Assembly (NCBI RefSeq): GCF_905235195.1
Contig: NZ_CAJOKH010000027.1
Coordinates: 1-54,605, forward strand
Reading direction: 5' to 3'
DNA from: an uncultured Methanobrevibacter sp.
Lineage (GTDB): Archaea > Methanobacteriota > Methanobacteria > Methanobacteriales > Methanobacteriaceae
DNA: 54,605 nt
The notes beneath the pieces are model-generated. The model was given only the letters and a program-made list of their open reading frames with translations, was not told the origin of the DNA and ran no database searches. Every line of letters starts with the position of its first letter. Positions within the stretch are counted from its first letter, which is position 1. Position numbers and translations under genes: made by a program. This document shows, one piece after another, positions 438 to 43,896 of this stretch.

Positions 438-440
438 TTA
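355..440. repeat. 35-41 bp direct repeat, 2.3 copies
   Basis: Two near-identical units start at 355 and 390. Each begins AAATGATTTATAAGAAAA and ends with AGACTGTAATAGA; the second has a few extra bases (CTTAG) in the middle. A third partial unit (AAATGATTTA) at 431-440 runs into the pheA stop codon. The array lies just downstream of pheA and could affect 3'-end formation, but no function is shown. Confidence 0.7.
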
Positions 441-1271
441 TTCAATTAAATGATAAGAACCTAATATTTTAAAAAATGAAGTGTTAGCTTCAATTAGATT
501 AATAATTTTAGAAATATCTTCATCTTCCCTATTTCCTTCAAAATCTATAAAGAAAATATAATCCCCCAAAGCTTTTTTAGAAGGCCAAGATTCAATTTTT
601 GTTAAATTAATATTAAATTCTGCAAATATTCCCAAAATACCATATAACCCACCAGGCTTATCATCACAAAGTGAAAAAGCTATAGATGTTTTATCCCTAT
701 CTGTTTTATCACCATCATCTTTTGATAAAACAATAAACCTTGTTTGATTATTATTAGCATCTTGAATATTTTTCTCTAAAACATCCAAACCATATAATTC
801 TGCAGCTTTTAAAGTACCTATTGCAGATGCATTTTTAAATTTTTTAATATTTTTGGCAGCATGAGCAGTACTGAAAGTAGGATGAATATTAAAATCCATT
901 TTATCAAGATAATTATGACATTGAACTAAAGCTTGTGAGTGAGAATAAACATCTGCAATCTCTTCAAGTTTTACACCTTTAGGAGCAAGTAGATTATGAT
1001 TAACATCCACTATAATTTCCAATGAAATCATTAAATCATAATCATGCAGAAGTGAATCATATGTAATATTAATAGACCCTCCAAGAGAATTTTCAAGTGG
1101 AACAACACCTTTAATACAATCTCCACACTCAATTGCATCCATAACCTCAACGATTGTATCAAAATCCTTTAAGCAAATTTCATCAATGTCTTCACCTAAA
1201 GTTGATACAAATTTACATGTAGCCTCATAGGTAAATGTACCTTTAGGACCTAAAAAAGCAATATTAAAAAT
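438..1271 (-). CDS. pheA: Prephenate dehydratase with ACT domain
   Basis: Converts prephenate to phenylpyruvate in phenylalanine synthesis; cytoplasmic. The N-terminal catalytic domain begins IAFLGPKGTFTYEA and contains PLENSLGG and the NNQTRFIVL segment with the family's essential TRF motif. A C-terminal ACT domain (GGLYGILGIFAEFNINLTKIES) is the usual phenylalanine sensor. The conserved N-terminus lies upstream of the first ATG (1142), so a start there would delete about 43 essential residues. In frame between GGAGG (1283-1279) and IAFLG there is no ATG, GTG or TTG; the best start is ATT at 1271, 7 nt from GGAGG, giving 277 residues, the normal family length. It follows the CBS gene on the same strand with a 61 bp gap. 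Function sure, start inferred. Confidence 0.93.
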   Translation of the reverse strand: MFNIAFLGPKGTFTYEATCKFVSTLGEDIDEICLKDFDTIVEVMDAIECGDCIKGVVPLENSLGGSINITYDSLLHDYDLMISLEIIVDVNHNLLAPKGVKLEEIADVYSHSQALVQCHNYLDKMDFNIHPTFSTAHAAKNIKKFKNASAIGTLKAAELYGLDVLEKNIQDANNNQTRFIVLSKDDGDKTDRDKTSIAFSLCDDKPGGLYGILGIFAEFNINLTKIESWPSKKALGDYIFFIDFEGNREDEDISKIINLIEANTSFFKILGSYHLIE

Positions 1272-1283
1272 AATAAATCCTCC
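1269..1283 (-). promoter_or_regulatory. Ribosome binding site pointing to an ATT start (pheA)
   Basis: On the minus strand GGAGG (1283-1279) is followed by ATTTATT and then ATT (1271-1269). The 7 nt spacing is the same as at dnaK, grpE, argG, cobB, ftr, nnr and many other genes here. The other in-frame ATT codons, at 1274 and 1262, fit less well. Confidence 0.6.
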
Positions 1284-1332
1284 AAAAAAATAAAAAAAGT
1301 AGCTAATATTACTTAAAGTAATAGTAGCAAAA

Positions 1333-2151
1333 TTATTCTATTTCTGCAACAAGAGCAAGTAAATCGGTTTGTGTAATAATACCAATTACTTCCTTATTAT
1401 CATTTACAACAGGATATCCATTAAATCCTGTTTCCATCATTTTACCTGCAACATCCGCAATAGTATCCTCACTAGAAACAGCTGAAACATTTCCTGACAT
1501 AATATCATCAACATATAAATTTTTAATTTGTGTTTTTTGATATTTTTCAGGAGTGTGTTTTTTAAAGTCCATTAAAGCTCTAATAATATCCTTAGAAGTA
1601 ATTATTCCAACAAGTTCACCCTTGTCCCCAGTTACGAGTAACCTACCAATTTTATTATCAATAATTACACGCCTTGCATGGATTAATCTGTCTTCAGCTG
1701 AAACAGAAATAATGTTTTTAGACATTACTTCCCCAACAGTAACCCTTTCATAAGGCCTACCAACACATAAACTAACAAAATCTGCTTTAGAGACAATACC
1801 TATCATCATATCCTCATCTTGAACAGGAACAGAACCAATACCATTTTCAAGCATAATATTTGCCACATCAACTAAATCCATTGTTTTATCTACAGATATA
1901 ATATCTTTTACCATAACAGAGGATATGTGTAGTTTAGATGGAGATAATTTATCAACTTTAGAAGAACCTAATTTATTTGCAATATCCCTTTCAGAAACAA
2001 TACCTACTAATTCTTTTTCATTGTTTTGATTAGTATTGACTACTGGTAATCGGGATATTTTGTTTTTTCTAAGTAATTTTAAACCATCTAAAAGATTTTG
2101 ATCTTTATCAATAGTTATTAAATCTTCAGACATAATATTTTTAATTTGCAT
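1333..2151 (-). CDS. Protein with four CBS domains
   Basis: A 272-residue soluble protein built entirely of four CBS modules (about residues 7-60, 78-130, 142-195, 215-270), each with the typical GIVSERD / GIITSKD / GIITQTD end. CBS pairs (Bateman modules) bind adenosyl ligands such as AMP, ATP or SAM and sense energy state. There is no catalytic or channel domain, so the partner cannot be read from the sequence. The ATG at 2151 follows GGGAGATG with 7 nt spacing. It sits between pheA and a second four-CBS protein on the same strand; the pair may be related by duplication, although their sequences differ considerably. Methanogen genomes carry many such stand-alone proteins, often misnamed as IMP dehydrogenase-related. 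Confidence 0.85.
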   Translation of the reverse strand: MQIKNIMSEDLITIDKDQNLLDGLKLLRKNKISRLPVVNTNQNNEKELVGIVSERDIANKLGSSKVDKLSPSKLHISSVMVKDIISVDKTMDLVDVANIMLENGIGSVPVQDEDMMIGIVSKADFVSLCVGRPYERVTVGEVMSKNIISVSAEDRLIHARRVIIDNKIGRLLVTGDKGELVGIITSKDIIRALMDFKKHTPEKYQKTQIKNLYVDDIMSGNVSAVSSEDTIADVAGKMMETGFNGYPVVNDNKEVIGIITQTDLLALVAEIE

Positions 2152-2264
2152 ATTAACATCTCCCTATTTTATGGATAAAATTTAAATCGAAAAAACAATC
2201 AATAAAATTTCCCAATAATTATAAAAAAATTAAAATTAATTATTAAATAATAATAAATAAAAAT

Positions 2265-3212
2265 TTAACTTGAATTAATTGCTTTTAAAATATCTCTTTC
2301 AGTGATAATTCCAACAACTTGTTCATTTTTAACTACTGGAACACCACCAATATTAAAGTTTTTCAATAATTCAGAAAATTCTCCTAGCCTAGTTAATGGT
2401 TCAACAGTTTTTGCACCTTTAGACATAATTTCACTAATTTTGAAATCTTCTAATATTTCACTAGCATTGATTGAAGTCATTTGGGAGAATAATTTTTTAT
2501 CAACAAAGAATTTTAAGATATCATTACTTGTTACAATTCCTCTTAATTTTTCAGGAGTTCTATCCGGAATATCTTCATCTTCACTTACAATAGGTAATCT
2601 TCTGAAACTATTTCTTACCATGAATTTAGTAACATAATCAATAGATGTACCCGGTGTTACAGTAATAACATCAGTAGTCATAAAGTCTTGAACCAATTCA
2701 TCAGTTAAAACTCCTGCTAATGCTAATGCAAAATCTCTTTCAGTCACAATACCTACCAATTTTTCATCTTTATCGACGATAGGCATTGCACCAACATGGT
2801 TATCTACCATAGCTTTAACAGTTTCACGGATATTGGATTTATGATTCATAGTAATTGGACCACGAGTCATAATCTCTTTAACAGGTTCATTAATTGCAGA
2901 GAGATAATTATCATCACATTTGTATTTAATGATATTGTATTTATCTCCACCACCTAAGAAATTTAAAATATCCATACTTGTTACAATTCCTAAAAGTTTT
3001 CCAGAACCTGGATCAGTAACAGGTATTCTTCTAAATTCGTGTTCTATCATTATTTTTGCAGTACCACTAATAGATTTAGTAGGAGGAACTGATATAACTT
3101 CTTTTTTAGCCAAAGTCATAATGTCCCCATCATGTTCAGATAGATTTGTTTCACGTTCAACAGATCCTTTATCTCCAGACCTTTTTAAGTTTTTTGCGTT
3201 TACATTTTTCAT
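2265..3212 (-). CDS. Second protein with four CBS domains
   Basis: A 315-residue soluble protein with an N-terminal basic tail and four CBS modules, ending GIVTSMDIL, GIVTERDFAL, GIVTSNDIL and GIITERDIL. The role is presumably ligand (adenylate or SAM) sensing; no effector domain is present. A longer frame from GTG at 3221 exists, but GAGG at 3220-3217 lies properly spaced (8 nt) before the ATG at 3212, which gives the start MKNVNAKNL. A 113 bp AT-rich gap separates it from the downstream CBS gene. Function beyond ligand binding is unknown. Confidence 0.85.
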   Translation of the reverse strand: MKNVNAKNLKRSGDKGSVERETNLSEHDGDIMTLAKKEVISVPPTKSISGTAKIMIEHEFRRIPVTDPGSGKLLGIVTSMDILNFLGGGDKYNIIKYKCDDNYLSAINEPVKEIMTRGPITMNHKSNIRETVKAMVDNHVGAMPIVDKDEKLVGIVTERDFALALAGVLTDELVQDFMTTDVITVTPGTSIDYVTKFMVRNSFRRLPIVSEDEDIPDRTPEKLRGIVTSNDILKFFVDKKLFSQMTSINASEILEDFKISEIMSKGAKTVEPLTRLGEFSELLKNFNIGGVPVVKNEQVVGIITERDILKAINSS

Positions 3213-3544
3213 AGAACACACCTCATATTTTTTAAAACTTTAAAATTATTATTCTGATTAATAATTAAAATCTAATTTTTAGTTAAATTATAAAGCTTAA
3301 CTTTTTAAAATAAAACCCATAAATCCAATCATTATATGAATTAAATTATTTAAAAATCAGAGAATATGAATAATTAACAATATTATTTAAATAAAAATAG
3401 TATTAATTTTTTTAATCATCTTTTTAAATATACAATATTATTTTAAATAAAATTTCCTATTGAGTTTAGAGTTATAGAAGTAAATGCATATAAATTTTTT
3501 TATATCATTTAAAAATAATACTATTAATTAAATTATAATTATTA
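3213..3544. other. AT-rich intergenic region
   Basis: Separates queE from the CBS gene, both on the minus strand. It should contain the promoter of the CBS gene and the 3' end of the queE transcript. No structure, repeat or small frame stands out. Confidence 0.5.
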
Positions 3545-6611: not shown

Positions 6612-6625
6612 GAGGTGTAAATATT
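6612..6625 (+). promoter_or_regulatory. Ribosome binding site pointing to an ATT start (adhesin)
   Basis: GAGG at 6612-6615 is followed by TGTAAAT and then ATT (6623-6625), again 7 nt. A stop codon (TGA, 6611-6613) overlaps the site in the same frame, and no ATG, GTG or TTG occurs before TTG 6644, which is 28 nt from GAGG. Confidence 0.6.
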
Positions 6626-42519: not shown

Positions 42520-42534
42520 GGAGGAATTACTATT
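42520..42534 (+). promoter_or_regulatory. Ribosome binding site pointing to an ATT start (gatB)
   Basis: GGAGG (42520-42524), then AATTACT, then ATT (42532-42534): spacing 7 nt. The in-frame ATG at 42541 is 16 nt from GGAGG, too far for normal pairing. Frame ATT-ATT-AAT-ATG continues directly into the conserved N-terminus. Confidence 0.5.
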
Positions 42535-43896
42535 ATTAATATGAAATGTGGACTTGAAATTCACGTACAACTTGAAACTGAATCAAAGTTATTCTGTAAT
42601 TGTCCAACTAATTATAAAGAAGCACCGGCAAATACTAATATTTGCCCAGTATGCTTAAATCAACCTGGAGCTAAACCATTTCCAACCAATGAAAAGGCTT
42701 TAGAAAATGCCTTAATGATTTCATTAATGTTAAACTGTAATATTGAAAAAGATATAGCTTATTTTATGAGGAAACATTATGATTATCCAGATTTACCTTC
42801 AGGTTATCAGAGAACTTCTATTCCAATTGGATATGAAGGAGAATTAAATGGTATAAGAATAAGAGAAATACATATGGAAGAAGATCCAGGTCAATTCAAA
42901 CCTGATAAAGGTATTGTGGATTTTAATCGTTCAGGAATTCCATTAATTGAGATTGTTACAGAACCAGATATTCACTCTCCAGAAGAAGCTCGTAACTTCT
43001 TAAATCAATTAATCAGAGTTTTAGAATATAGTGGAGGAGCTCGTGGTGAAGGTACTATGAGAGCTGATGTAAATGTTTCCATTGAAGGAGGAAACAGAGT
43101 GGAAATGAAAAACATCAACTCTATTAAAGGTGCATTCAAAGCATTAAAATTCGAAGTAATAAGACAAAAAAATCTTATGAAAAGAGGTATGGAAATTAAA
43201 CAAGAAACCAGAGCTTACCTTGAATCACAAATGATTACCGTATCCATGAGATCAAAAGAAAATGCTGATGATTATAGGTTTATACCAGACCCCGATTTAC
43301 CACCTATGGAAATATATGATGAACAAGTTGTTGAAATTTCAAAAACCATGCCAGAAGCTCCTCATAATAAAGCAAAAAGATTTATAGCAGATTATAATCT
43401 TGATGAGGAAACTGCAACAACCTTAACTTCAGAACTTGATTTAGCTGATGCATTTGAAGAAGTTGCAATTAAAGTTGATCCTGTATTTGCAGGTTACTGG
43501 ATGAAAGATGAACTTAAAAGAGTTTTAACCTATAATAAATTTGATTTTTCAAACAGTGGAATTTCAACTGACGATATAATTGAAATTATAAACCTGCTTA
43601 AAAATAATGAAATTACAACAAAAGCTGGTCAAAGAATTGTAGAAAAAATGCCTAATAATGAAAAATCACCTAAAGAAATTGGTGAAGAATTAGGTTTAAT
43701 CGGTATTGTTCAAGAAGATGCGGTTTTAGAAGCTGCAAAACAAGCAATTGATGAAAATCCAAAAGCAGTTACTGATTATAAAGAAGGTCAGAAAAATTCA
43801 ATTAACTTTTTAGTTGGACAGGTGATGAGACTTACAAAAGGTAAAGCTGATCCTAGTGAAACTGTAAAAATCTTAAAAAGCTTAATAGATGAATAA
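42532..43896 (+). CDS. gatB: Asp-tRNA(Asn)/Glu-tRNA(Gln) amidotransferase subunit B
   Basis: The kinase and tRNA-binding subunit of GatCAB, which in archaea of this kind makes Asn-tRNA(Asn) from Asp-tRNA. MKCGLEIHVQLETESKLFC, CPVCLNQPGAKP, RKHYDYPDLPSGYQ, EEDPGQFKPDKGIVDFNRSGIPLIEIV and GEGTMRADVNVSI are intact, as is the helical YqeY-like tail (VGQVMRLTKGKADP). 451 residues from ATG 42541, 454 from the better placed ATT 42532. The CBS-ParB gene follows 15 bp later and hisE after that, a probable operon. gatA and gatC are outside the window. Confidence 0.95.
   Translation: MINMKCGLEIHVQLETESKLFCNCPTNYKEAPANTNICPVCLNQPGAKPFPTNEKALENALMISLMLNCNIEKDIAYFMRKHYDYPDLPSGYQRTSIPIGYEGELNGIRIREIHMEEDPGQFKPDKGIVDFNRSGIPLIEIVTEPDIHSPEEARNFLNQLIRVLEYSGGARGEGTMRADVNVSIEGGNRVEMKNINSIKGAFKALKFEVIRQKNLMKRGMEIKQETRAYLESQMITVSMRSKENADDYRFIPDPDLPPMEIYDEQVVEISKTMPEAPHNKAKRFIADYNLDEETATTLTSELDLADAFEEVAIKVDPVFAGYWMKDELKRVLTYNKFDFSNSGISTDDIIEIINLLKNNEITTKAGQRIVEKMPNNEKSPKEIGEELGLIGIVQEDAVLEAAKQAIDENPKAVTDYKEGQKNSINFLVGQVMRLTKGKADPSETVKILKSLIDE

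Follow-up and report, generated by a model that had tools for sequence, protein, structure and literature searches.

The window, i.e. the whole stretch of 54,605 nucleotides analysed here, comes from an uncultured Methanobrevibacter sp. and carries near its left end, on the reverse strand, pheA, which encodes a prephenate dehydratase with a PDT domain and a C-terminal ACT domain (PF01842, E=8e-11). Upstream of pheA lie two CBS-domain-like genes (1333-3221, reverse strand; named from sequence without a family search), the nearer of which directly adjoins pheA; its end precedes pheA also in relatives of the same genus and of genus g5 (genera and genomes are given below by g- and G-numbers). The forward strand carries gatB and a gene encoding an adhesin-like protein. 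The features discussed are compiled in Table 1.

The pheA frame is open from stop to stop (1337..438, reverse strand). The in-frame codons 3' of the Shine-Dalgarno sequence (SD) are TTT ATT ATT TTT AAT ATT, and from ATT 1271 onward the gene reads TTT AAT ATT GCT TTT TTA GGT CCT AAA GGT ACA TTT. Neither ATG nor GTG nor TTG is present in this frame from the upstream stop to ATG 1142, which lies 43 codons past ATT 1271. In the leader, taken from the stop codon of the upstream gene to position 1228, ATG and GTG are absent in all frames and the few TTGs are all out of frame. PF00800 is matched from 1262 onward over nearly its whole length (profile positions 1-179 of 181), including the N-terminal GPxGTF segment (E = 3.7e-55 to 1.1e-54), and the solved prephenate dehydratases 4lub, 2qmw and 3mwb align from PheA residue 3-4, upstream of ATG 1142. 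In a comparison with G002, the nearest relative, the 120 bases that precede ATG 1142 have identities of 0.83, 0.93 and 0.65 at the three codon positions, and dN and dS of this segment (0.15 and 0.66) are close to those of the remainder of pheA (0.13 and 0.60), indicating that the segment upstream of ATG 1142 is coding. The preliminary description had stated that pheA lacks a canonical start and that an ATT stands 7 nt from GGAGG, at the spacing used by other genes. The scans of frame and leader agree with it exactly, and the remark on spacing holds, since the SD-to-start distance in 316 ORFs of this genome peaks at 7-8 nt. Pairing of the pheA SD with GGTCCT, which would sequester it, was modest (z = -1.9). 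Judged from sequence alone, pheA of this Methanobrevibacter-group genome seems to begin at AUU 1271; the N-terminus is unmapped.

Table 1 Features of the window at and around the near-cognate start codons
Feature	Position	Strand	Remark
pheA (prephenate dehydratase, PDT + ACT) read from ATT 1271	438..1271	-	stop codon 438-440
Shine-Dalgarno GGAGG of pheA	1279..1283	-	from sequence; relatives have GGAGG/GGGGG/GGTGA at the same place
Putative AUU start codon (ATT) of pheA	1269..1271	-	7 nt 3' of GGAGG
Conserved PDT N-terminal segment (IAFLGPKGTF...), lost with a start at ATG 1142	1143..1262	-	
ATG 1142, first canonical in-frame codon of pheA	1140..1142	-	ORF listing: 438..1142; expected choice of a gene finder that accepts only ATG/GTG/TTG
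Probable ATT start, adhesin-like protein	6623..6625	+	N-terminus (M)NINKKALLLIIFTMF, GAGGTG SD
Shine-Dalgarno GGAGG of gatB	42520..42524	+	
Putative ATT start codon of gatB	42532..42534	+	9 nt before first canonical codon ATG 42541
gatB (GatB_N + GatB_Yqey)	42532..43896	+	Pfam

The start of pheA was then read in 106 genomes of Methanobacteriales from 19 genera by an automatic tally, from which the calls for g12 and for two g19 genomes were struck after visual inspection (g19 was read as TTG); G082, G138 and a couple of calls within g5 are ambiguous. The arrangement SD-N7-ATT was found at the start codon in 4/4 genomes of the same genus (the own genome, G001, G002 and G003), and about 60 of the 106 genomes, from 11 of the 19 genera, had ATT or ATA at SD spacing: g1 (4/4), g2 (2/2), g4 (3/3), g5 (39/44), g6 (1/1), g7 (2/2), g8 (1/1), g9 (2/2), g10 (1/16), g15 (1/1) and g16 (4/4). 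ATG, GTG and TTG were completely absent between the in-frame stop and the PDT domain in 45 genomes, often with a TAA in the same frame only a few codons upstream. In many g5 species the ORF opens with TAA GGG GGT TTA AAA ATT ACA TTA ATT TCA TTT or a near-identical sequence and, therefore, few codons are left as a possible pheA start. The genomes of g18, inferred to be Methanothermobacter-like, have CTG at the pheA start; three of the eight, with about 50% GC, lack a subsequent ATG, leaving CTG only. ATG was found in g3, g11, g13, g17, most of g10 and several g5 species, and TTG in g19 and g20; the ATG-started versions show that PheA can do without a near-cognate start. In a distant archaeon (G060:C32), the pheA match contains one internal TGA.

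Could translation of pheA start elsewhere? ATT 1274 and ATT 1262 are likewise in frame, but ATT 1274, replaced by CTT in G002, follows the SD by 4 nt, ATT 1262 follows it by 16 nt, and only the column of 1271 is ATT at 7 nt in all four genus members, so that initiation at one of these or another neighbouring near-cognate codon is very improbable. Even less credit can be given to a product that starts at ATG 1142 behind a non-coding or pseudogenic upstream frame: ATG 1142 is the first canonical start, but it has no SD at start spacing, its use would cost the PDT domain the first 40 residues, the upstream segment is under purifying selection and is aligned by the solved relatives, and relatives with an ATG-started pheA have this ATG near the position of 1271. 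Because the assembly is a draft in 107 contigs, an ATG masked by an assembly error, or a gene shifted in frame from a different start, had to be considered as well. Against this, the feature recurs in many species whose genomes were assembled independently, some of them as a single contig, and no ATG or GTG exists in any frame of the leader; we regard such an artefact as next to impossible. Recurrence over genomes together with the switching of codons argues for a conserved yet evolving feature, neither an assembly error nor a peculiarity of one genome.

A second gene in the same window, gatB, has GGAGG 7 nt before ATT 42532 and 16 nt before ATG 42541. All of the 45 SD-bearing gatB genes examined in the order have an in-frame ATT (39), ATA (5) or ATC (1) at SD spacing, with a gap of exactly 7 nt in 43 of them, whereas the distance from the SD to the first ATG, GTG or TTG is 13, 14, 16, 19, 25 or 34 nt. 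The gatB SD keeps a fixed distance to ATH and not to ATG. The pattern includes Methanothermobacter-like genomes with a GC content near 50% (0.506 in the sample of G047), in which the ATT of gatB is not favoured by composition, and the same arrangement was seen by eye in G049, beyond the 45 genes. As a putative near-cognate start, gatB is the stronger and the cleanest case; the ATG a few codons downstream could be used instead. The gatB matches of G040, G042 and G044 contain one in-frame stop, possibly a mere run-off of the alignment at the gene end.

The bare pattern GGAGG-N7-ATW is not diagnostic, since it gave 150 hits versus 68 in the reversed control, many apparently in-gene Gly-Gly codons, and gene-anchored scans were therefore used. 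In the own genome, about 780 kb of 1.89 Mb were sampled, comprising 510 gene-like ORFs. A canonical start with an SD was present in 388 of the sampled genes and missing in 121. In these 121 genes, the in-frame codons 6-8 nt downstream of an SD measuring 5 nt or more were ATT in 9 of 20 cases (background 0.097, binomial P = 4.7e-5). One of the nine ATT hits (1187) sits inside pheA and is not a start; without both pheA hits, ATT at this spacing amounts to 7 of 18 (P = 1e-3). Convincing cases in the own genome are pheA, gatB, rrp41, an ARMT1-like gene, csm1/cas10 and the genes for an adhesin-like and a pseudomurein-peptidase-like protein, and near-cognate starts make up about 1-2% of the genes. 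Five other long start-less ORFs of the sample (L121 14964-15455, L109 12423-12740, L116 7236-6901, L113 15076-15432 and L122 12578) were rejected as probable fragments or frameshifted genes.

Two of these cases are backed by orthologue columns. The ARMT1-like gene has ATT in g1 (4/4) and g10 (2/2) in the alignment column that holds ATG, GTG or TTG elsewhere. The exosome gene rrp41 has ATC or ATT after an SD of the GAGGTG type, and g5 genomes whose SD contains no GTG have ATG at that position; elsewhere, a GTG start inside the SD cannot be fully excluded. The adhesin-like protein contains Big_3_5, Big_1 and MG4 domains; the alternative TTG 6644 of its gene has no SD, and with it the positively charged end of the signal peptide would be lost. 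As for csm1/cas10 of the CRISPR type III system (L232 15490-18021, reverse strand), the sole SD-spaced start is ATT (AGGAGGTG-TTTGAT-ATT), and the upstream GTG falls within the SD. One in-frame stop was seen in the ARMT1-like gene of G001, G003 and G023, again possibly only alignment run-off at the gene end.

In 200 kb of the Methanothermobacter-like genome G047, three cases were found: pyrG with CTG, a gene for a PHP-domain-like protein with ATT and one for a secreted protein with ATA. All three codons stand where the protein or its signal peptide is expected to begin; the genes were named from sequence and not by family search. The pyrG-like gene (CTP synthase by sequence; L349 15252, forward strand) has CTG where the initial Met is expected. 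Sampling of 400 kb of G023 (g5) yielded one further case in 249 genes, ATT in a surface protein gene, and these differing yields indicate that the frequency of near-cognate starts varies within the order. In the outside control G051 no case was found, which is weak evidence because few SDs are used there. The preliminary description had inferred a real AUU start in pheA, and this receives strong comparative support, with ATT or ATA kept across many genera while the neighbouring codons change. The inference would have been refuted by homologues that all start with ATG, without any ATT in the lineage, which is not what was found: some genera have ATG and most have ATT or ATA. Its further suggestion that such starts may be routine in this lineage is borne out by gatB, rrp41, the ARMT1-like gene, csm1, the surface-protein genes and the Methanothermobacter-like sample. 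Its alternative suggestion, a throttle on phenylalanine synthesis, is plausible but purely inferred.

We consider it highly likely that PheA is made from AUU 1271, probably at lowered output, as one case of a habit of near-cognate initiation in Methanobacteriales. The best reading of the sequences is an order-wide habit in which AUH (and CUG) codons with a strong SD would serve as starts of about 1-2% of the genes, and this habit would be a larger finding than the pheA start itself. In the proposed mechanism, the strong SD would put AUU in the P site and the initiator Met-tRNA (anticodon CAU) would accept the third-position mismatch, for which, as we infer, the SD compensates. In this way, translation would start at AUU, AUC, AUA or, in higher-GC genomes, CUG, each with a strong SD at standard spacing. 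As the most likely outcome, we infer that translation would run at a reduced and fixed rate, which may respond to aIF1 or to the supply of initiator tRNA; there are no rate data. The strong SD, its standard spacing and AUH or CUG at the start column are what the sequences themselves display. Since archaeal aIF1 acts against initiation complexes on codons other than AUG (PMC6237735 and references therein), AUH starts should be weak and aIF1-sensitive. The genome has a single aIF1 gene, which starts with ATG, arguing against self-control via aIF1 as known for infC; a loop of this type, with an AUU-started aIF1 gene, was rejected for this reason.

What the near-cognate starts are for is a separate question, and the two answers considered both accept the AUU start. 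They may merely be tolerated, a strong SD making AUH almost equal to UUG, so that they drift without regulatory meaning. This is a serious possibility, if one we doubt somewhat more than we credit it: pheA alternates between ATT, ATA, ATG, TTG and CTG among genera, the ARMT1-like gene uses ATG, GTG, TTG or ATT, and some of the affected genes, encoding surface proteins and Csm1, share no common theme. However, gatB has AUH in every SD-bearing case examined, including the genomes with about 50% GC, and pheA keeps ATT or ATA in most of the 44 g5 species despite changing neighbour codons. Moreover, in a published survey of 36 prokaryote groups AUG-to-AUU switches amounted to only 1.6e-5 of the ancestral AUG starts (PMC5622118), a rate so low that repeated and retained AUU starts are unusual; we infer that this survey, built on annotated starts, would miss cases like pheA. 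The other answer, to which we give nearly even chances, is a deliberate throttle or switch, in which the poor start would keep the output of PheA and GatB low and responsive to initiation fidelity, like infC or Streptomyces sigR. It is favoured by the deep conservation in gatB and pheA, by the precedent of a non-canonical start that sets protein ratios via IF3 (PMC5472188) and by the discrimination of aIF1 against non-AUG complexes (PMC6237735), but expression data and any evidence of a varying aIF1 level are lacking and the aIF1 gene itself starts with ATG. In sum, the order-wide conservation in gatB argues for selection, the switches in pheA partly for tolerance. It appears unlikely at present that Methanobacteriales possess a conserved translational regulon in which archaeal initiation fidelity (aIF1 or initiator tRNA) acts through the near-cognate starts of at least pheA and gatB and, in some branches of the order, probably also of rrp41 and pyrG; if true, archaea would have their own counterpart of the IF3-sensitive genes, with members in amino-acid synthesis and in the tRNA charging that depends on the amidotransferase.

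Archaeal GTG and TTG starts share the SD spacing and, presumably, the initiator Met-tRNA with the AUH starts, which differ in having the mismatch at the third codon position and in lying outside the set of codons used by gene finders. Near-cognate initiation has also been retained by evolution in the conserved non-AUG uORFs and proteoforms of eukaryotes. Eukaryotic non-AUG cases mostly give uORFs or extended isoforms. In pheA, by contrast, an SD sets the near-cognate codon, and the enzyme would have no other start. The start of bacterial infC, encoding IF3, is ATT in E. coli and ATC in Streptomyces (PMC5472188), and like those of pheA and gatB it is a conserved, poorly annotated near-cognate start with a third-position mismatch. 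Yet infC encodes a fidelity factor and is autoregulated, whereas pheA and gatB encode enzymes, in an archaeon whose aIF1 gene is ATG-started; autoregulation of the infC type, for which the gene must encode a fidelity factor, does not apply to PheA and GatB. Streptomyces sigR (GTC start, IF3-repressed), likewise a gene outside the initiation machinery with a misannotated non-canonical start, is a precedent for control of the protein level (PMC5472188). It differs in the class of codon, in the bacterial factor and in being experimentally shown, while the evidence for pheA and gatB is comparative only.

In the open-access literature searched, no report of AUU starts in archaea, methanogens, Methanothermobacter or Methanobrevibacter was found; reports elsewhere are possible. 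Gene finders usually assume ATG, GTG or TTG starts (PMC5472188), and with this assumption about 1-2% of the genes of these methanogens would get wrong N-termini. The catalytic domain of PheA would appear to be cut short, from which a pseudogene or an auxotrophy for phenylalanine could wrongly be inferred. At the same time, one orthologue with AUU, AUA, AUG, UUG or CUG according to species, mostly behind a strong SD, offers a natural test system for the fidelity of archaeal start-codon selection.

The region between the nearer CBS-domain gene and the pheA SD (1284-1331, reverse strand) contains a hairpin (GCUACUAUUACUU...AAGUAAUAUUAGC) followed by T7-A-T7, which abuts the SD. A leader-peptide attenuator, suggested by an upstream frame reading FFYFF, was rejected: no start codon is available in the leader, and the T-tract is terminator-like. 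Hairpin and T-tract 5' of pheA look like the terminator of the upstream gene, so that pheA may need read-through or a promoter concealed in this region. The T7AT7 tract recurs at the same place in relatives, and so does, in several g5 species, a TATAGT...ACTATA hairpin.
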